Below are positions 1,526 to 62,815 of a stretch of DNA of 64,000 nt, in pieces. Every line of letters starts with the position of its first letter. Positions within the stretch are counted from its first letter, which is position 1. Position numbers and translations under genes: made by a program. The notes under the pieces are model-generated. The model had not been told where the DNA came from. It saw only the letters and a list, made by a program, of their open reading frames with translations, and searched no databases. The stretch lies in the NCBI GenBank assembly GCA_000010565.1, contig AP009389.1, forward strand, positions 2,852,001 to 2,916,000, read 5' to 3'. The DNA is from Pelotomaculum thermopropionicum SI. Its GTDB lineage: Bacteria; Bacillota; Desulfotomaculia; Desulfotomaculales; Pelotomaculaceae.

Positions 1526-2347
1526 CTATACCCCCCGCTCAAGCTCCGCCAGCGCCCTTTCCGCCTCTCCCGGCTTCGGCGCGACGCCGTGCCAGCCCAC
1601 CTGGTGCTCCATAAAGGAGACGCCCTTTCCCTTAACCGTTTCGGCCACAATCATGACCGGCTTCCCTTTAACCGCCCTGGCCTCGTCCAGGGCGGCCAGA
1701 ATCTGCTTAAAATCATGCCCGTCAATAGAAATTACATGCCAGCCAAAAGCGCGCCATTTCTCGGCCAGCGGTTCGGGTGACATTACCTCCCGCACCGGCC
1801 CGTCAATCTGGAAGCCGTTGTGGTCCAGAAAGGCTGTTACGTTGTCCAGCTTATAGTGGGCGGCGGACATGGCGGCCTCCCAGACCTGGCCTTCCTGAAC
1901 CTCCCCGTCCCCTAGCAGGACATAAACGCGGTAATCTTTTTTGTCAATTTTTGCGGCCAGGGCCATGCCGTTGGCGGCGGAAAGCCCCTGGCCCAGAGAA
2001 CCCGTCGACATTTCAACCCCCGGCAGCTTGCGCATGTCCGGATGCCCCTGCAGCCTGCTGCCGAACCTGCGCAGGGTCATCAACTCCTGCACCGGAAAAA
2101 AGCCCCGCTCGGCCAGGGCAGCGTAAAGAACCGGGGCGGCATGCCCCTTGGACAGCACAAAGCGGTCCCGGTCCGGCCAGTCCGGGCGGGAAGGGTCAAG
2201 GCGCAGTTCATGAAAGTAAAGGGCGGTAACGATGTCGGCCGCCGACAGGGAGCCGCCCGGGTGCCCCGACCCGGCCTCGCACAGCATTTTTATAATATGT
2301 ATCCTTATTTCCTTCGCCTTTTTCTTAAGCTCTTCAATCTTATCCAT
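1526..2347 (-). CDS. Transketolase, N-terminal subunit
   Basis: A 273-residue thiamine-pyrophosphate-binding half of transketolase. It has SKGHAAP near residue 65 and GDGEVQEGQVWE near residue 145, the conserved substrate and TPP/Mg motifs. The frame extends 19 codons further upstream, but the ATG at 2347 is preferred because GGGGTGA sits 5 bases ahead of it and the protein then begins MDKIEELKKKAKEIR, as homologues do. This start overlaps the yitT stop codon by 8 bp, suggesting translational coupling. It pairs with the downstream C subunit to form one active enzyme. Confidence 0.93.
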   Translation of the reverse strand: MDKIEELKKKAKEIRIHIIKMLCEAGSGHPGGSLSAADIVTALYFHELRLDPSRPDWPDRDRFVLSKGHAAPVLYAALAERGFFPVQELMTLRRFGSRLQGHPDMRKLPGVEMSTGSLGQGLSAANGMALAAKIDKKDYRVYVLLGDGEVQEGQVWEAAMSAAHYKLDNVTAFLDHNGFQIDGPVREVMSPEPLAEKWRAFGWHVISIDGHDFKQILAALDEARAVKGKPVMIVAETVKGKGVSFMEHQVGWHGVAPKPGEAERALAELERGV

Positions 2348-3200
2348 TCCCGTCACCCCGTTGTTTATATTCTTTAAAGCCCTCCCCCAGTACCTCGTGC
2401 ACATCCGCCAGGATCACAAAGGCCCGCGGGTCGACTCCGTAAATTATATCCTTCAGGCGGGTTATTTCCGACCTGTTTACCACCGAAAGAAGAACTTCCC
2501 TCTCAGCCCCCGTGTACACGCCGCGGGCCGGCCAGACGGTAGCCCCCCGGTTCAACCCTTTCACTATGGCTGCGGCTATTTCCGCCGGCCGGTCCGATAT
2601 GATGAAAAAAGCTTTGGCGTAGCTGAACCCCTCCTGAACCATGTCAATCAGCCAGGCCGTGACAAATATTGTAATCAGGGCGTACATGGCCAGTTCGGCC
2701 GAACTAAAGGTCATCCCGGCGGCTAATACCACCGCGCCGTCCACCAGAAAGAGCAGTTGCCCGATGTTTACTCCCGTGTAGGTCCTTAATATGGCGGCAG
2801 CGAGGTCCGTGCCGCCGGTGGTGCCCCTGTACTTAAAAACCAGCCCCAGGCCCAACCCCACCATCACGCCGCCAAAAAGGCTGGCCAGGAGGAGATCGCG
2901 GGTGGGCACGGGCAAAAAGGGGGCCATCAGGTCAACGGCCAGGGAAAGGGCAACGGTGCCGTAAAGGGAACGAAAGCCAAAGCGCAGCCCCAGGCGGTAA
3001 ATGCCCATGATAAAAAGAGGAACGTTCAAGGCAAGCATGGCCGCCCCTACCGGCACGTTTAACAGGTAATGGAGTATGGTGGCAATGCCGCTGACACCGC
3101 CGGCGGCAATTTTGTTGGGAATCAGAAAGAGATCCAGCCCGAGGGCGGTTAACAGCACACCGGCGCTGACACCGGCAATCTCCCAGATCAGCTTGACCAT
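2340..3200 (-). CDS. YitT-family membrane protein (DUF161 + DUF2179)
   Basis: About 286 residues. The first two thirds hold roughly five to six hydrophobic segments, including GGVSGIATIL and the conserved YRGTTGGTDL. The C-terminal soluble domain (VVNRSEITRLKDII) is DUF2179, which has a ferredoxin-like fold. The family is widespread in Firmicutes, and its transport or regulatory role is unsettled. A GTG at 3212 is in frame, but GGAG overlaps it, whereas the ATG at 3200 has GGAG 11 bases upstream, so I use that. It overlaps the transketolase N subunit. Confidence 0.88.
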   Translation of the reverse strand: MVKLIWEIAGVSAGVLLTALGLDLFLIPNKIAAGGVSGIATILHYLLNVPVGAAMLALNVPLFIMGIYRLGLRFGFRSLYGTVALSLAVDLMAPFLPVPTRDLLLASLFGGVMVGLGLGLVFKYRGTTGGTDLAAAILRTYTGVNIGQLLFLVDGAVVLAAGMTFSSAELAMYALITIFVTAWLIDMVQEGFSYAKAFFIISDRPAEIAAAIVKGLNRGATVWPARGVYTGAEREVLLSVVNRSEITRLKDIIYGVDPRAFVILADVHEVLGEGFKEYKQRGDGNG

Positions 3201-3390
3201 AACTGCGGACACTCCAGAAAGTATAAGGTGCCTGCCATTTCTAGGATATCCAGAACCCGCCGGAGCTATTAAACGGCATACCTGTAATTATTCTTTCCGG
3301 GCCAGGAAATTCCTCCCCGCCCTTAAAGAACAAAATCGCCCTTCGATTATCCGCAGGCGGTCATTCGCGGCGCATTAAGGGCGGTGCAAA

Positions 3391-3601
3391 GGCGGTGCTT
3401 TGTCACCGCTCACTCCGGTGCTCCGCGCCGACAGCACTTGCTGCTTGCTTCGGGCGAAATTGGGCCGCCCTCAACTCACCGTCCTGGTTCGGTTCGGGCT
3501 GGTGCGGACATCCCTGTCCGCACCCCCAATTTCGCAACCTCGCCGCGCAGAGTGCTGTTACCGGCGCTACGCAAGTCGTTCGCTTTTGACAAAGCACCGC
3601 C
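3391..3601. repeat. Imperfect palindromic element, about 210 bp
   Basis: The ends are a perfect 14-bp inverted repeat, GGCGGTGCTTTGTC at 3391-3404 and its complement at 3588-3601. Inner arms also pair: GCGAAATTGGG against CCCAATTTCGC, and GCGCCGACAGCACT against AGTGCTGTTACCGGCGC. The apex contains the small hairpin GTGCGGACA..TGTCCGCAC. Frames through it are open by composition only and match nothing I know. It occupies most of the 505-bp gap between yitT and prfB. It looks like a non-autonomous (MITE-like or REP-like) element. Confidence 0.65.
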
Positions 3602-9613: not shown

Positions 9614-11314
9614 TTAATCGGCAATGGCCACGGCGGCGGTCTCGACCCGGTCGCCGCCCTTTTCCTTTGCCTTTTTAAGGGCCCGCTCGGCCGCCTTGAA
9701 CAGGCCCGCTGCATCGCCGGCATCGCGAGGAAATTCGGCCACCCCGATGCTGGCAGTCAGCCGGGCGGCCCGCCCTTCCTTCTTCAAAAAAACATTCCGG
9801 CGGATCCGTGTCCATATGATTTCGGCCTTTTCCACCAGGCGCCGGCCGTTTACACCGGGCAGCAGCAGGGCAAACTCGTCCCCTCCGTAGCGGGCGGCAA
9901 GATCCCCTTTGCGGGTGTTACCGTCGATCAGGGCGGCCAGTTCGGCCAGCACCCGCTCCCCCGCCTCGCGCCCGTAGCGCTGGTTAAATATTCTAAAGTG
10001 ATCCAGATTTATTAAAATCAGACCGGCACCAGCGCCGTCCGGTCCGGCGTTGGCGCAAAACTCCCTGACCATTTTGGAAAACGGCCCGAAGCTCAAGAGC
10101 CCGGTTGCCGGATCCTGGCAAAGCGCCTGCTCCAGGCGGGCGCCAAGCACCGCGTTCTCAACCGCCACGGCCGCCTGACCGGCCAGGACGGCCATAATGT
10201 GCAAGTGCTTTTCCTCAAAGGCCGCGGGACGCTTGTCCCCCAGCACAATCACGCCCAGCGCCTCCCTGCCGGAAAGCAGCGGGACGACGAGCAGCGAGCG
10301 CAGCACCTTGACCAGGCCCGTTTCACCGGCGGTGCGGGGGTCGCTCCGGGAATCGTAAATAATTTCCGGCTCCCTGCCGCTCAGGACCCACCCGATCAGG
10401 CCCTCATCCGGGTATACCGCCGTCGACCAGAGCTGCTTAGAATACGGCCCGGTAACCGCCGCGGGCAGGAAAATGTCCTTCTCCTCCGACCGGAGGTAGG
10501 CCACTCCGGTATGAAAGGGGAAAGCCTTGCCGGCGCTCTTCAGAATCTGCTCCAGCACCTCCGCCGGGCCGGGGCCTCCTTCCAAAAACCTCGCCACCTC
10601 GTAAAAGGCCGTCAGCTCCCTGTTGGCCACCTGGAGCCGGACGTGGTAGCGCAAAATAAACTGGAGCGCCAGCACGGAAAAAAACAGGGGCAATACGCCC
10701 GCCGGCCCGGTGTGCCTGTAAACCACGACCATGAAGAGGCCCAGCGGCACAGTAAAAAGGTAGGTCAGCCCGTCCCACTTAACCGCATCGGTCCAGGCCA
10801 AGCCCGGCAGAATGTGCCTTTTGGGCAGCAGGTAGAGGTAGACCAGCACGTGGTTGACCGTTATGTAAGAGGCAATAAAGGCGGCCAGGGGCAGGGCATT
10901 GGCAAAGCCGGCCAGGCCGGGTACGCCGCCGCACCGCTCAAACGCCTTCCCCGCCGCCACCGCCGCCAGCACATATTGCCCGGCGTTAAAAAGGGTTGTG
11001 CGCATGGGGTTGCCCCGGTTGGCAATGCCCTGACCGAGCAAGGTGGCCAGCCCGCCGGTCCAGGCGGCGGCAGCCGGCCCGTAAAGCAAAAAGGACGTCA
11101 GGATCAGGGCAAAGCCGCCCGAGAGCTGGCCGTGGGGGAACGACACGGCCAGCCATTCGGCCATGGCACCGAGGAAAATTACGGCCAGCAACTCCTCTCC
11201 CCTGTCCACATCGAGGGCGGGAAAGAGCAGGTAAAGCTGCCAGACCGCCGCTCCCACCACCAGCCAGTTATACAAAACGTGTACAATTCCCTCTTTTGCG
11301 CGCAAATCCTCCAC
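9614..11314 (-). CDS. Membrane GAF-GGDEF diguanylate cyclase
   Basis: 566 residues. The N-terminal ~220 residues contain about seven hydrophobic segments, residues ~230-390 form a GAF-like sensor domain, and the C-terminus is a GGDEF domain. The active site RYGGDEFALLLPG is intact, and RKGD five residues ahead fits the allosteric product-inhibition I-site. It should make cyclic di-GMP at the membrane. The start is given as GTG 11314, with only a weak Shine-Dalgarno; a TTG 13 codons downstream is possible. The 141-residue GT2-like gene lies 30 bp upstream. Confidence 0.92.
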   Translation of the reverse strand: MEDLRAKEGIVHVLYNWLVVGAAVWQLYLLFPALDVDRGEELLAVIFLGAMAEWLAVSFPHGQLSGGFALILTSFLLYGPAAAAWTGGLATLLGQGIANRGNPMRTTLFNAGQYVLAAVAAGKAFERCGGVPGLAGFANALPLAAFIASYITVNHVLVYLYLLPKRHILPGLAWTDAVKWDGLTYLFTVPLGLFMVVVYRHTGPAGVLPLFFSVLALQFILRYHVRLQVANRELTAFYEVARFLEGGPGPAEVLEQILKSAGKAFPFHTGVAYLRSEEKDIFLPAAVTGPYSKQLWSTAVYPDEGLIGWVLSGREPEIIYDSRSDPRTAGETGLVKVLRSLLVVPLLSGREALGVIVLGDKRPAAFEEKHLHIMAVLAGQAAVAVENAVLGARLEQALCQDPATGLLSFGPFSKMVREFCANAGPDGAGAGLILINLDHFRIFNQRYGREAGERVLAELAALIDGNTRKGDLAARYGGDEFALLLPGVNGRRLVEKAEIIWTRIRRNVFLKKEGRAARLTASIGVAEFPRDAGDAAGLFKAAERALKKAKEKGGDRVETAAVAIAD

Positions 11315-56257: not shown

Positions 56258-56269
56258 TAATTTGAGCAG
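56258..56269 (+). repeat. 12-bp direct repeat, right copy
   Basis: TAATTTGAGCAG, identical to 51244-51255, 39 bp after the last permease gene. Confidence 0.45.
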
Positions 56270-56295
56270 GAATTCACATTAACATTTGGCATATA

Positions 56296-56325
56296 TTGAC
56301 ACAAAATATAAAAACCGAATATAAT
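56296..56325 (+). promoter_or_regulatory. Sigma-A promoter of the SLH-LRR gene
   Basis: TTGACA, 18 bases, TATAAT. The predicted start near 56332 gives a leader of about 310 nt. Confidence 0.75.
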
Positions 56326-56382
56326 TAACGTAAAATATAAAATATTAAAATAAAAGCATTAAATAAATCTGATTTTAGAGAT

Positions 56383-56476
56383 AGTGTGAAGCAGTGATCT
56401 TGCAGCTAATATGGTCACTTTTTACGGCTGCAAGTGAGCTAATAGTGAAACCGGCACACTGATGCCCGGTTTTTTT
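56383..56476 (+). promoter_or_regulatory. Candidate RNA switch with terminator in the SLH-LRR leader
   Basis: Elements in order: AGTGTG (56383), AGTGA (56393), CTTGCAGC (56399), TCACT (56415), GCTGCAAG (56427), AGTGA (56433), AGTGA (56444), ACCGG (56450), CACACT (56455), CCGGT (56466) and seven T. CTTGCAGC/GCTGCAAG is a perfect 8-bp stem. AGTGTG/CACACT would close the domain, while ACCGG/CCGGT plus the T-run makes a terminator. The CACACT lies inside the terminator loop. TCACT can pair with any of three AGTGA copies, and with the first it forms a pseudoknot. I recognise no known riboswitch class. Confidence 0.55.
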
Positions 56477-56645
56477 GTTTATTAATAATGGCAGATGATG
56501 GTTAGGCAGTTATTAAATTCTAAGGGGGGTGAAAATATTTATAGATAACAAACTGTACCGCATTACAGCACTGCCATGACCGGATGCCTTGCCGAAAAGA
56601 CTGTCTTGCGGCAAAAAAATGCTTGAGCAAAAGGCGGTGGTATTT

Positions 56646-59600
56646 ATGTCCATTTATAACCGAAAGAAAAGTCTTAAGGCCTTATTCAGAATAAGTTTAC
56701 TTGCTGTTTTACTGTTGTGCCTCATTCCGTTACACAAAGCGTCAGCCGCTTCCGGCGAAGCAGCCGTTCAAGCGGGCAAGCCGTCTTTCACCGACCTGGC
56801 ATCGGACAGCCCGCTGTACCCTTACGTTCGCTACCTGACTGACAAAGGTATCATCAATGGTTTCCCCGACGGGACCTTCCGCCCCGCCGAAAGTGTTACC
56901 CGCGCCCAGGCGGCCAAAATTGCAGTCCTGGCCAAAGGGCTGCACCCGGTCAAGGATGTCTCGCCGACATACAGCGACGTGCCTGCCGGCTACTGGGCCT
57001 TCGGAGAAATCGAGGCCGCTACCAAAGAAGGACTCCTAAGGGGTTACCCTGACGGGACGTTTAACCCTGACGGCACCATTACCAGAGCGGAGGCAATCAC
57101 CCTTTTGCTCAGGCTCTCAGGGGGAGAGCTTTCCGGCAATGATATCGTCATCGGAGATATTGGCCGCGACCACTGGGCCTACCGGGCGGTAATTACCGCA
57201 GTTGAAGCGGGCCTGGTAGAACTGCCGGCCGATAAGCTTTTCAAGCCGGACCTTGCCTTTCGCCGGGGCGACCTGGCCCGCGGCTTGAGCGCCCTGTTCA
57301 CCCTGGGGCCGTCCCTGCGCCAAACCGAACTGACCGGTAAACTGGCAGTCAAAAAGGGAGAAGTTACTCTAACTGCCGAAAACGGTGCTTCCCGCGAGGT
57401 AGCCGGTGAGACACGGGTTGGCGCCGGGACAAAGATCATCACCCGTCACAACAGTCAGGCTGAAATTGCTTTTGATGACGGAAGCGGCATCCTCATTGAT
57501 GCCAATACTGAGATTTCAATAGTGAAAGCAACAGGTTTTGCTTACATGCGCAGCGACGGTTCGCCCGGCACAGCGGTGGACAGGCTGGAGATCGAATTAA
57601 AGAAGGGTAAAATTTTCGGCGCTCTGGCCAGCCGCTATGAAAAGGCAGAGACATCCGGTGAAAATAAAACATCCTTTACGGGCGGGGGAAAAGAAAAATA
57701 TATAACTCTTGCCTCCACCAACTTTTCACCGGGCTTTGCCGGAATCCTGCTGGCGGAGAATGAAACCCCTGGCACCGAAAGCCAGGAGACAGCCTGGTGG
57801 CAGGAACCTTATTCCGAACGCGAGCGTGTGGTAGTGGACATGCCGTGGGGCGTTTGCGGCATCCGGGGCACCTTCTGGATGAACCAGGTCAGCTCCACGG
57901 GGCAGAGCACCGCTCTCATCACCGGTAAAGCCGTGGTCACCGCCGGGGGCAAGTCCGTGACACTCACTGGCGGCCAATCCACCACAATCACGTCATCGGG
58001 TGCCTATCCCACGCCACCTGCTGCTCTGACCCAGGCCGATAAGCAGTCCTGGGCCGCAGTGAAGGGATGGGTCGAAGAACGTGCCCGGGAGATCCAGAAC
58101 AACCTGCCGGTGCCGCCGGCTCCCGCAGTCCTGCCGCCTGAAGTGCCGGTGGAGCAGCCAACTGCGCCGGTTGAGCAGCAGCAACAGGAAACGGCCGGTT
58201 TAGCCGGCAAAATAATTGAGACGTTTGAACAGGATACAACCGGTACGGCCACTACTACAGGCAGTTCGGGCAACGGCGGAAGCAGCGGCGGTAATTCAAA
58301 TACTCAAATAGTAACGGCAATAAATATTTTAAACAATGTAATCACGTTAACATTTAATAAAGCGGTGTCGGAAGCGCATATAGACGATACCGGCGCCTGG
58401 TTCCCGGTGGTAACTCTAGCCGATGGAATTAAATATAAGATCTGGATCGTCGATAGCAGCAATGATTATTCCATGTGCCTGCACAGCGTCAGTTATACGC
58501 CCGGGAAGAACACCGTAGATATAATTACTTTTGGAGCAATGCCGGGAAAAGAGTACAAATTGACGGTATACAAGGGAGAACAATTTGAAGAAACGGTAAT
58601 GAACAGCAGTTTTACCTTCCCGGAAGACAACACTGCCCCCACATTTGCAGCAGGCTACCCCAGGACCGAAAATCTCACGGAAAACTCGGTGGATTTACTG
58701 GTGCTGACAAATGAACTGGGCACCGCCTACTATGTGGTGCTTAGGGCGCAAGATGCCAACGACTGGGCGCCGTCAAGCGCCGCCGGCGTGAAACAGTGGG
58801 CGCTCAATCCTGAAGATGACGCCTACTCGAATGTGACGTCGTGGAGCGGGGATTTTTTCCTGAGTGATATTGAAAGCAGGGCGACCGTCAATTACTTAAT
58901 AGGAGGCACGGAATATATAGTATACGTGGTGGCGGAAGACGAATCGGAAAACATAACCGGGATTGAGACAATCAGCTTTGCAACACCGCAAGATAATACG
59001 GCGCCTGAATTTGCAACAGGTTACCCGGAGGTAACAAACATCACGGCGGGCTCGGTGGACCTGTCCTTAAAGATAAATGAATTTGGTACCGCCTATTATG
59101 TAGCGCTCTCCGTAAATGATGCCGTTTACGCTCCGTCTACTGCGGGAGAAGTGAAACAATGGGCGCTTAACCCGCAAAATTCCCCTCCAAATATAACATC
59201 CTGGAGCGGGTCTTATGACTGGATGGAGCCTGATGAAGAAGAAATTGTAACTATTTATGGTCTTGAAGCCGGCGCAGCATATAATATATACATGGCAATC
59301 GAAGATATGTCAGGGAATTTAAATGAGACATTCGCAACCATTCAGGTGATGACTGCCGGGGGGACTGTGGTTCATTTCAATGACGCCAACCTTGAGGCTG
59401 CCGTAAGAGATGCTTTAGGTAAACTCGATGGGGACATAACCAGTGCGGACATGGCGGGGCTGACATATTTATCTGCCGCCGACAGAGGCATTGCCGACCT
59501 GACAGGCCTCGAATATGCGGTTAACCTGCAGGAACTCGATATCTGGTCCAACCAGATTACCGGTATTTCACCTTTGGCCGGCCTGACTACCTTACAGAAG

Positions 59601-59972
59601 CTTGAACTTTCTGGTAACCAGATCAGCGACATATCACCCTTATCAAATCTGTCAAACCTGCTGTTTCTTAACCTCGGGAGCAACCAGATCAGCGCCATTT
59701 CTGCACTGGCCGGCCTGACCGGCTTACAGGATCTTCGCCTCAATGAAAACCAAATCAGCAACATTGCAGCCCTGGCTGATTTGAAAAACTTGCAATATCT
59801 TGATCTGCAAAAGAACCAAGTAAGCGACCTGGCGCCGCTGGTCGCCAACAGCGGCCTGGGCGAGGGCGACATTGTAGACTTAACCGGCAACCCGCTGGAT
59901 ACAACCCCCGGCTCCCAGAACATGCTCGATATCCAGGCCTTGCAGGCCAGAGGAGTAAATGTGGCCTATTAA
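56646..59972 (+). CDS. SLH-FecR-LRR cell-surface protein
   Basis: 1,108 residues. A signal peptide (to about SASA) is followed by three SLH modules (~20-200; GIINGFPDGTFRPAESVTRA, GLLRGYPDGTFNPDGTITRA), a FecR-like domain (~215-440; VGAGTKIITRHNSQAEIAFD, WGVCGIRGTFWM), a Pro/Gln/Gly linker, an Ig-like segment, two FN3-like repeats each opening DNTAP, and five or so internalin-type 22-residue leucine-rich repeats (LQKLELSGNQISDISPLSNL). The frame reaches TTG 56589, but ATG 56646 opens the signal peptide. It anchors to the wall polymer and probably binds a partner. Confidence 0.9.
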   Translation: MSIYNRKKSLKALFRISLLAVLLLCLIPLHKASAASGEAAVQAGKPSFTDLASDSPLYPYVRYLTDKGIINGFPDGTFRPAESVTRAQAAKIAVLAKGLHPVKDVSPTYSDVPAGYWAFGEIEAATKEGLLRGYPDGTFNPDGTITRAEAITLLLRLSGGELSGNDIVIGDIGRDHWAYRAVITAVEAGLVELPADKLFKPDLAFRRGDLARGLSALFTLGPSLRQTELTGKLAVKKGEVTLTAENGASREVAGETRVGAGTKIITRHNSQAEIAFDDGSGILIDANTEISIVKATGFAYMRSDGSPGTAVDRLEIELKKGKIFGALASRYEKAETSGENKTSFTGGGKEKYITLASTNFSPGFAGILLAENETPGTESQETAWWQEPYSERERVVVDMPWGVCGIRGTFWMNQVSSTGQSTALITGKAVVTAGGKSVTLTGGQSTTITSSGAYPTPPAALTQADKQSWAAVKGWVEERAREIQNNLPVPPAPAVLPPEVPVEQPTAPVEQQQQETAGLAGKIIETFEQDTTGTATTTGSSGNGGSSGGNSNTQIVTAINILNNVITLTFNKAVSEAHIDDTGAWFPVVTLADGIKYKIWIVDSSNDYSMCLHSVSYTPGKNTVDIITFGAMPGKEYKLTVYKGEQFEETVMNSSFTFPEDNTAPTFAAGYPRTENLTENSVDLLVLTNELGTAYYVVLRAQDANDWAPSSAAGVKQWALNPEDDAYSNVTSWSGDFFLSDIESRATVNYLIGGTEYIVYVVAEDESENITGIETISFATPQDNTAPEFATGYPEVTNITAGSVDLSLKINEFGTAYYVALSVNDAVYAPSTAGEVKQWALNPQNSPPNITSWSGSYDWMEPDEEEIVTIYGLEAGAAYNIYMAIEDMSGNLNETFATIQVMTAGGTVVHFNDANLEAAVRDALGKLDGDITSADMAGLTYLSAADRGIADLTGLEYAVNLQELDIWSNQITGISPLAGLTTLQKLELSGNQISDISPLSNLSNLLFLNLGSNQISAISALAGLTGLQDLRLNENQISNIAALADLKNLQYLDLQKNQVSDLAPLVANSGLGEGDIVDLTGNPLDTTPGSQNMLDIQALQARGVNVAY

Positions 59973-60379: not shown

Positions 60380-62815
60380 TTGCAAGAAATAATTTCTCTG
60401 ATGCAAACTCTTAAACTCTTTCGCAATCTGTCATACACCGACCTTGAAGAGATTGCTTCGCACTGCAAAGTAAGTATTTTTGAGACCGGTCAGATGATCC
60501 TCGCCCAGGGTGTCCCCCCGGGAGATTTTTATATTATCTGTGAGGGCAGCGCCGAGGTCGTACTCGATAACAAGAATAGAGAGAATATTCCCATCGCCCT
60601 TCTCGGGCCGGGAGAATATTTCGGTGAAATGTCGCTCTTGACAGGTGAACTTACTTCTGCCGCCATTATTGCGGTTGAACGGTGCAGGATCCTGGCGGTG
60701 TCCAAAACGGGTTTTGACCGGATGCTGGATTTGCTCCCCGAACTCAGCCACAATCTGCTCCAGACCCTGTCCTTGCGCCTGAAGAAGGTCAATCTCGGGG
60801 TTTGGGAAGCCCGCAATAAGGAATTGGCCCTTATAATGTTAATCCAGGACGAGAAAAAGAGCAGGTACGGTGAGATCGTAGGGAAGAGCAAGGAAGTAAA
60901 AAAAATCAAAGAAGACCTGAAAAGATGGTCGTCAACCGACGAGCTGCTGCATCTGATTGGAGAAAAAGGAACGGGCAAGGAATTGACCGCCCGCGCCGTT
61001 CACAACTTCAGCAGGCGAAGGGAAAAGCCGTTTTTTTCGGTTGAGTGCGGGAATATGAACGCAGAAGAACTTGAAGAAAAACTTTTCGGTCAGTTTGGCT
61101 ACCTGGAACTGGCCAAAGGCGGAACGCTGCTGCTTAAAGAAATAGAACTGCTGAATCCAGCCACGCTGAAGCGCCTGATTGATTATGTGGGGCATCCCCT
61201 GGCCGATATCCGCTTAATAACCACTTCCAGAGAGGACATCTGCCGGAAAGCTGCAGGGGAAGAACTGGAAAAACTCTTTGCCGTTACCGTCAAATTTACT
61301 CCGTTAAGGCAGAGGAAGCGGGATATACCGGAGTTAATACAGTATTTTACCGGCAGGTTTGCTAAAAAGTATAATAAACAGGTTCCTTCAATCAGCAAGG
61401 ACGCGATAGAAAAGCTGATTTCCTACGATTACTACCAGGGCAACGTGGCAGAACTGGAGGATGCGCTGGAGAGGGCATTTTTACTGGCGGAAGAAGGCGT
61501 AATATCCTCCGAGCATATTTTTTTGGGCGCCGTCGCGGGAAAGACAGGGCCGGCAGTAAACCTGCTGCGCTTTAAGCCCTTGATGGACGCAATCCAAAAA
61601 AAGAACTACCCGGCCTATTTTCAGGCCGCAGTTACGGTTATATTCTTATCCTTGATTGCAATCTGCCTTTTCGGCCCGGAAGACCATAAACAAAACCCGG
61701 GAACCCTCCTGGCGTGGTCGCTGGGATGGCCGTCTTTTGTTTTTTCAACCGCAATTTTCGGCCGGATTGCCTGTTCCGTTTGTCCCATGTCAAACATTGC
61801 CATGATCTTTCAAAAGTATTTCAGTTTTTCCAGACCCATACCCTTATTTATTAAAAAGTACGATTACCTGATAATTACTTTTCTTTTTGTATTAATATTT
61901 TGGATTGAGGAAATTACCGACATGCGCCGCTCCCCCTTTGCGACAGGGGTATTGTTCCTGTCAATCTTATCCGGGGCCGTGGCAGCCGCTGTTTTCTTCC
62001 CGCGCCAGACCTGGTGCCGCCACCTCTGCCCGCTGGGCGGCATGTTCGGGGTTTGCTCCATGGCTTCCCCTGTGGAGTTGAGGTCCAACACTGAGCTGTG
62101 TTTAAGCAAGTGTACTACCCATAACTGCTACAAGGGTTCTGAGCGCGATAGCGGGTGCCCGCTGTTTCAGCACGCCCCCTTTATAGACAATAACCAGGAC
62201 TGCAAGCTGTGCCTGAAATGCGTCCGCAACTGCCCCAACGGCTCGATCCAGTTGAACCTGCGCCCGCCGGCCAGGGAAATCTGGGAGGTCAGCAGGGTCA
62301 GGCGAAGTATGGTTGTTTTTGTGGCTGTACTGCTGGCCATTCTTTTCCCGCTTTCCGTTTTTGACAGGCTTCGGGAATCAATGGCCCACTTGCAGTGGCT
62401 GGGGCAGTTTACCTTTTTTTACTGGCTCTCGGTTCTGGCAGCAGTGGGCCTGACCTGGCTTTTCGTGGGGACTAAATTTGACGAGGAAAGATTCCTTCCC
62501 AGGATACGGGCTTTTTATTCTTTTGTACCGCTGCTGGCAGGAGCCCACGCTGCTTACCAGGCCAAGTTCCTGCCAATTGTGCCGGAATTGTCATTTAAGA
62601 TCATTTCCGGTACTCAAAGTGCCGAACTGATGGAAGTTTCAGTTTTAAATTTACTGGTACTGGCGTTTCTTTCAACCGGCCTGGCAATCTCCCTCTTTTG
62701 TGCCTGGAGAATAACCAAAACCAGTATCACATCAAAGTTCTTTTTAATGAAACAAACGGCAGCCCTGCTAACCGGTTTTTCTCTGATCGTCTACATTTAT
62801 CTCCGGAAAGGATGA
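60380..62815 (+). CDS. Fusion of cNMP-binding domain, degenerate AAA+ and membrane 4Fe-4S (NapH-like) domains
   Basis: 811 residues. Residues ~10-130 form a CRP/cNMP-binding domain (LLGPGEYFGEMSLLTGELTSA). Residues ~165-395 resemble the sigma-54 activator AAA+ domain with Walker A GEKGTGKE, but the GAFTGA loop is missing (KLFGQFGYLELAKGG) and Walker B reads TLLLKEI instead of TLFLDEI. From ~420 there are about seven helices with CSVCPMSN, CRHLCPLGG, and a ferredoxin motif CKLCLKCVRNCPNGS, as in NapH/CcoG polyferredoxins. No C-terminal DNA-binding helix. The TTG start is eight bases after GGGGTG. A redox- or ligand-controlled membrane electron carrier is my inference. Confidence 0.85.
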   Translation: MQEIISLMQTLKLFRNLSYTDLEEIASHCKVSIFETGQMILAQGVPPGDFYIICEGSAEVVLDNKNRENIPIALLGPGEYFGEMSLLTGELTSAAIIAVERCRILAVSKTGFDRMLDLLPELSHNLLQTLSLRLKKVNLGVWEARNKELALIMLIQDEKKSRYGEIVGKSKEVKKIKEDLKRWSSTDELLHLIGEKGTGKELTARAVHNFSRRREKPFFSVECGNMNAEELEEKLFGQFGYLELAKGGTLLLKEIELLNPATLKRLIDYVGHPLADIRLITTSREDICRKAAGEELEKLFAVTVKFTPLRQRKRDIPELIQYFTGRFAKKYNKQVPSISKDAIEKLISYDYYQGNVAELEDALERAFLLAEEGVISSEHIFLGAVAGKTGPAVNLLRFKPLMDAIQKKNYPAYFQAAVTVIFLSLIAICLFGPEDHKQNPGTLLAWSLGWPSFVFSTAIFGRIACSVCPMSNIAMIFQKYFSFSRPIPLFIKKYDYLIITFLFVLIFWIEEITDMRRSPFATGVLFLSILSGAVAAAVFFPRQTWCRHLCPLGGMFGVCSMASPVELRSNTELCLSKCTTHNCYKGSERDSGCPLFQHAPFIDNNQDCKLCLKCVRNCPNGSIQLNLRPPAREIWEVSRVRRSMVVFVAVLLAILFPLSVFDRLRESMAHLQWLGQFTFFYWLSVLAAVGLTWLFVGTKFDEERFLPRIRAFYSFVPLLAGAHAAYQAKFLPIVPELSFKIISGTQSAELMEVSVLNLLVLAFLSTGLAISLFCAWRITKTSITSKFFLMKQTAALLTGFSLIVYIYLRKG

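Follow-up and report, generated by a model that had tools for sequence, protein, structure and literature searches.

Class assignment and architecture of the leader RNA

The leader RNA of the SLH-LRR surface protein gene is an ordinary member of the known class II cyclic-di-GMP riboswitch, and it very probably works in the canonical manner of this class, binding c-di-GMP and acting as a transcriptional ON switch. The family membership was computed: a scan with Rfam 15 of the whole window (the 64,000-nucleotide stretch of DNA analysed) gave two matches, one of which is RF01786, the c-di-GMP-II riboswitch aptamer, at the leader. The match scores 62.8 bits, above the gathering cut-off (53.5 bits), and is not truncated, as it runs end to end over model positions 1-84 of 84 (E = 1.2e-11 for 64 kb, two strands and 4227 families). 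The features of the locus are as follows.

56296-56325 (+), sigma-70/A-type promoter TTGACA-18-TATAAT, 12 of 12 consensus matches
56378-56465 (+), c-di-GMP-II riboswitch aptamer (RF01786), full length
56383-56388 (+), P1 5' strand AGUGUG, pairing with 56455-56460 (Rfam structure line and direct reading)
56399-56406 (+), inner hairpin 5' strand CUUGCAGC, pairing with 56427-56434 (86% of cells paired in 41 relatives)
56413-56419 (+), pseudoknot 5' strand GG-UCACU, pairing with AGUGA 56444-56448 and CC 56451-56452
56444-56453 (+), pseudoknot 3' strand AGUGA-AA-CC-G, with predicted contacts A56449, A56450 and G56453 corresponding to A69, A70 and G73 of PDB 3Q3Z
56448-56476 (+), intrinsic terminator AAACCGGCA / UGCCCGGUUU followed by a U-run, hairpin of -9.0 kcal/mol with its 5' arm inside the aptamer
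56646-59972 (+), open reading frame of the exported SLH-LRR surface protein, likely start ATG 56646

All the helices of the family can be read directly from the leader, with six uninterrupted pairs in the closing helix P1 (AGTGTG 56383-56388 with CACACT 56455-56460), three in the short helix P2 (AGC/GCT, in RNA AGC/GCU) and eight in the inner hairpin, where CTTGCAGC (56399-56406) pairs perfectly with GCTGCAAG (56427-56434). The RF01786 pseudoknot was looked for as a loop GGxCAC together with GUGxAACC, and GGUCACU (56413-56419) with AGUGA-AA-CC (56444-56452) has this form. The sequence AGTGA occurs three times, at 56393, 56432 and 56444, and TCACT only once, at 56415-56419. Only the third copy (56444-56448) is the pseudoknot partner of TCACT; the first shares nucleotides with the conserved UGA in the internal loop of the aptamer, the second with the conserved GAG. 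These elements had been described in the earlier note, which named an 8-bp stem, three copies of AGTGA facing a single TCACT, the AGTGTG/CACACT stem and a consensus promoter, all of which are present as described. Its start of the element at 56383 was right to within 5 nucleotides, the conserved aptamer beginning about 5 nucleotides further upstream at 56378.

Thirteen nucleotides contact c-di-GMP in 3Q3Z, namely A13, A14, U37, G39, U60, A61, C68, A69, A70, C71, C72, G73 and A74 (review, PMC7288161). Eleven of the thirteen are identical by position at the leader (all except C68 and A74) when mapped through Rfam numbering, which differs from that of 3Q3Z by one, an offset inferred from letter agreement at conserved positions. 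The position of A74 is a G, the same letter as in the Rfam consensus, and the position of C68 is an A, where a U-A pair replaces G-C so that pairing is kept. The unpaired AA within the pseudoknot 3' strand corresponds to the predicted ligand-contact adenines of the same list (PMC7288161). The predicted ligand of the leader is c-di-GMP.

Compared with the 3Q3Z aptamer of Clostridium acetobutylicum and the RF01786 model, the leader has every helix, the pseudoknot, the conserved motifs and most of the contacts. It differs in the compensated U-A pair, in an imperfect outer part of P1 and in the hairpin loop, where five nucleotides are inserted and one is deleted relative to the model. The c-di-GMP-I (GEMM) riboswitch RF01051 shares the ligand and has a different fold; the leader has no match to it.

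Folding of the leader as a single strand gave an unremarkable thermodynamic stability (z = -1.56), as expected because the folding program cannot represent a pseudoknot. For the full leader the program, which models neither the pseudoknot nor the ligand, prefers non-aptamer folds. Single-strand minimum-energy folding was dropped as evidence since the aptamer is not shown by it, owing to the pseudoknot.

Covariation among relatives

Matches to c-di-GMP-II were found in 31 of the 113 genomes of the order and in none of the 14 control genomes. When 41 of the order's members were aligned, 99% of the pseudoknot cells were paired, and four of its seven pairs showed compensatory changes. The pair 56415-56448, which is U-A at the leader, is G-C in 30 members, A-U in eight and U-A in two, while the three other changing pairs swap between A-U and G-C (20/19) and, in two cases, between C-G and U-A (32/9 and 22/15). 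Pairing across the relatives reaches 72% of cells in P1, 90% in P2 and 86% in the inner hairpin; the last value was obtained after re-registering this hairpin, which MAFFT had left out of register (47% paired), and compares with 54% in shuffles. Scored for covariation as a whole, the structure reaches 0.440, compared with 0.201 when shuffled and at most 0.308 when slid. Covariation is thus present at the leader, as the covariation of the known c-di-GMP-II family.

The earlier note had regarded the leader as unclassified and had excluded c-di-GMP-II by eye. This does not survive the full-length RF01786 match, the conserved contacts and the covarying pseudoknot; a hit to a known Rfam family had been named beforehand as refuting novelty, and the scan returned one at the leader. 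The covariation search in relatives, also proposed there, succeeded within a known family. A new, unclassified riboswitch or a protein-binding leader would accord with pseudoknot letters unlike the consensus letters of c-di-GMP-II (GGUCAC/GUGAAACC here, GGGCAC/GUGCAACC usually), but the change is compensated, the match is full-length and above threshold, the contact nucleotides are conserved and covarying members occur in 31 of the 113 genomes of the order, so that we attach almost no probability to it. The variant strand GGUCAC/GUGAAACC may itself be the source of the by-eye misreading. The leader accordingly drops out as a candidate for a new riboswitch class. It is very unlikely that the A-U or U-A pseudoknot pair at the contact position marks an aptamer subtype, perhaps with shifted affinity or dinucleotide specificity; were it so, an altered aptamer would gate a surface protein for attachment by a syntrophic bacterium.

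One relative carries two c-di-GMP-II matches about 140 nucleotides apart on one strand (L025 and L062, genome G109, contig C85), probably a tandem riboswitch before a single exported-protein gene.

Overlap of the aptamer and the terminator

The terminator at 56448-56476 was missed by a simple terminator scanner and was found by hairpin folding. Its DNA reads AAACCGGCA...TGCCCGGTTT followed by a T-run, with CACACT lying in the loop and the inner stem; the earlier note had placed it in the loop. The 5' arm AAACCGGCA (56448-56456) consists of aptamer nucleotides, to which the pseudoknot strand, the ligand contacts and the beginning of the P1 3' strand all contribute. Since this arm lies within the 3' end of the aptamer, the ligand-stabilised aptamer and the terminator are mutually exclusive, and this exclusion is visible in the sequence. 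The mutually exclusive pairings previously proposed therefore hold, and so, very probably, does the type of device, a pseudoknotted riboswitch that attenuates transcription.

Without c-di-GMP, the nascent RNA would be expected to fold the terminator hairpin and the SLH-LRR gene would not be read. With c-di-GMP bound, P1, the inner hairpin and the pseudoknot would hold the AAACCGGCA segment, and its sequestration in the aptamer would block the terminator and allow transcription to proceed into the surface-protein gene. We infer from this arrangement that the switch at the SLH-LRR gene works in the ON direction. All four class II switches of C. difficile are ON switches (PMC6200980).

A hairpin scan found a terminator overlapping the aptamer in about 33 of 54 relatives; with the downstream sequence shuffled, 3.5 would be expected. 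When downstream sequences were swapped between loci as a control, the overlap was still found in 22 of 54, since the terminator arm is usually the conserved AACCGG(CC) tail itself. The outcome thus speaks more for a common design than for pairing particular to each locus.

That the aptamer is of class II but serves as an OFF switch, or acts through other control such as translation or RNA stability, seems to us most improbable. Some 21 of the 54 relatives are without an aptamer-overlapping terminator in the scan used, which makes alternative platforms in the family probable, and at this locus a hairpin-bearing stretch of 170 nucleotides lies between the terminator and the start of the gene. 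On the other hand, contacts A69, A70 and G73 are among the nucleotides making up the terminator 5' arm, no separate anti-terminator for ligand binding to disrupt was seen at the leader, and the C. difficile switches tested all work in the opposite direction to OFF.

The downstream gene and the intervening stretch

The ON switch proposed here precedes a gene whose product matches the Pfam families SLH (2.1e-39) and LRR_4 (4.4e-24), and it puts this surface protein under probable c-di-GMP control in a clostridial bacterium that appears to be syntrophic. Such control would match the part that class II switches play in activating genes for adhesion; three of the C. difficile switches act on adhesins or type IV pili, known or putative (PMC6200980). 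As in Cdi-2-4 (pilA1) and the other Clostridioides difficile class II switches, the aptamer stands before a surface or adhesion gene and ON control is expected, whereas the host and the target gene differ. A further difference is that the window has no group I ribozyme match.

Genes following c-di-GMP-II in ten relatives include those for Wzz (a polysaccharide chain-length protein), a bacterial sugar transferase, exported PKD, beta-helix and SpaA-like proteins, a GGDEF protein and two-component regulators, and the SLH-LRR gene fits this set. The link of the riboswitch to the SLH-LRR gene in particular is not conserved: no Rfam family was found in the leaders of the three best SLH homologues examined in other genomes of the family, and the leader DNA (56260-56650) had no match in those genomes.

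Between the terminator and the gene lies the 170-nucleotide stretch 56477-56645. It contains a stable hairpin (GCCG...CGGC) at about 56590-56611, not far from the likely ribosome-binding site. Used as a DNA query, 56482-56650 gave no second copy in the genome; as this segment is single-copy and 56260-56650 is unmatched in the family, a second conserved leader element is unsupported.

c-di-GMP signalling in the genome and other features of the window

The genome (one contig, 3,025,375 bases) encodes eight GGDEF domains and carries riboswitches of both classes, one c-di-GMP-II and eight c-di-GMP-I. Given these GGDEF domains and c-di-GMP-I copies, the ligand pathway is probably present. A GGDEF domain (106 bits) at 9650-10117 (-) of the window belongs to a candidate diguanylate cyclase.

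A TwoAYGGAY RNA motif (RF01731; 56.6 bits, gathering cut-off 43) occurs at 3418-3574 (-), just upstream of an open reading frame for an integral membrane protein at 2340-3212 (-) that resembles the YitT family by eye only. An unusual fusion at 60380-62812 (+) combines a cyclic-nucleotide-binding domain, a sigma-54 activator AAA+ domain and a C-terminal membrane/ferredoxin-like region.
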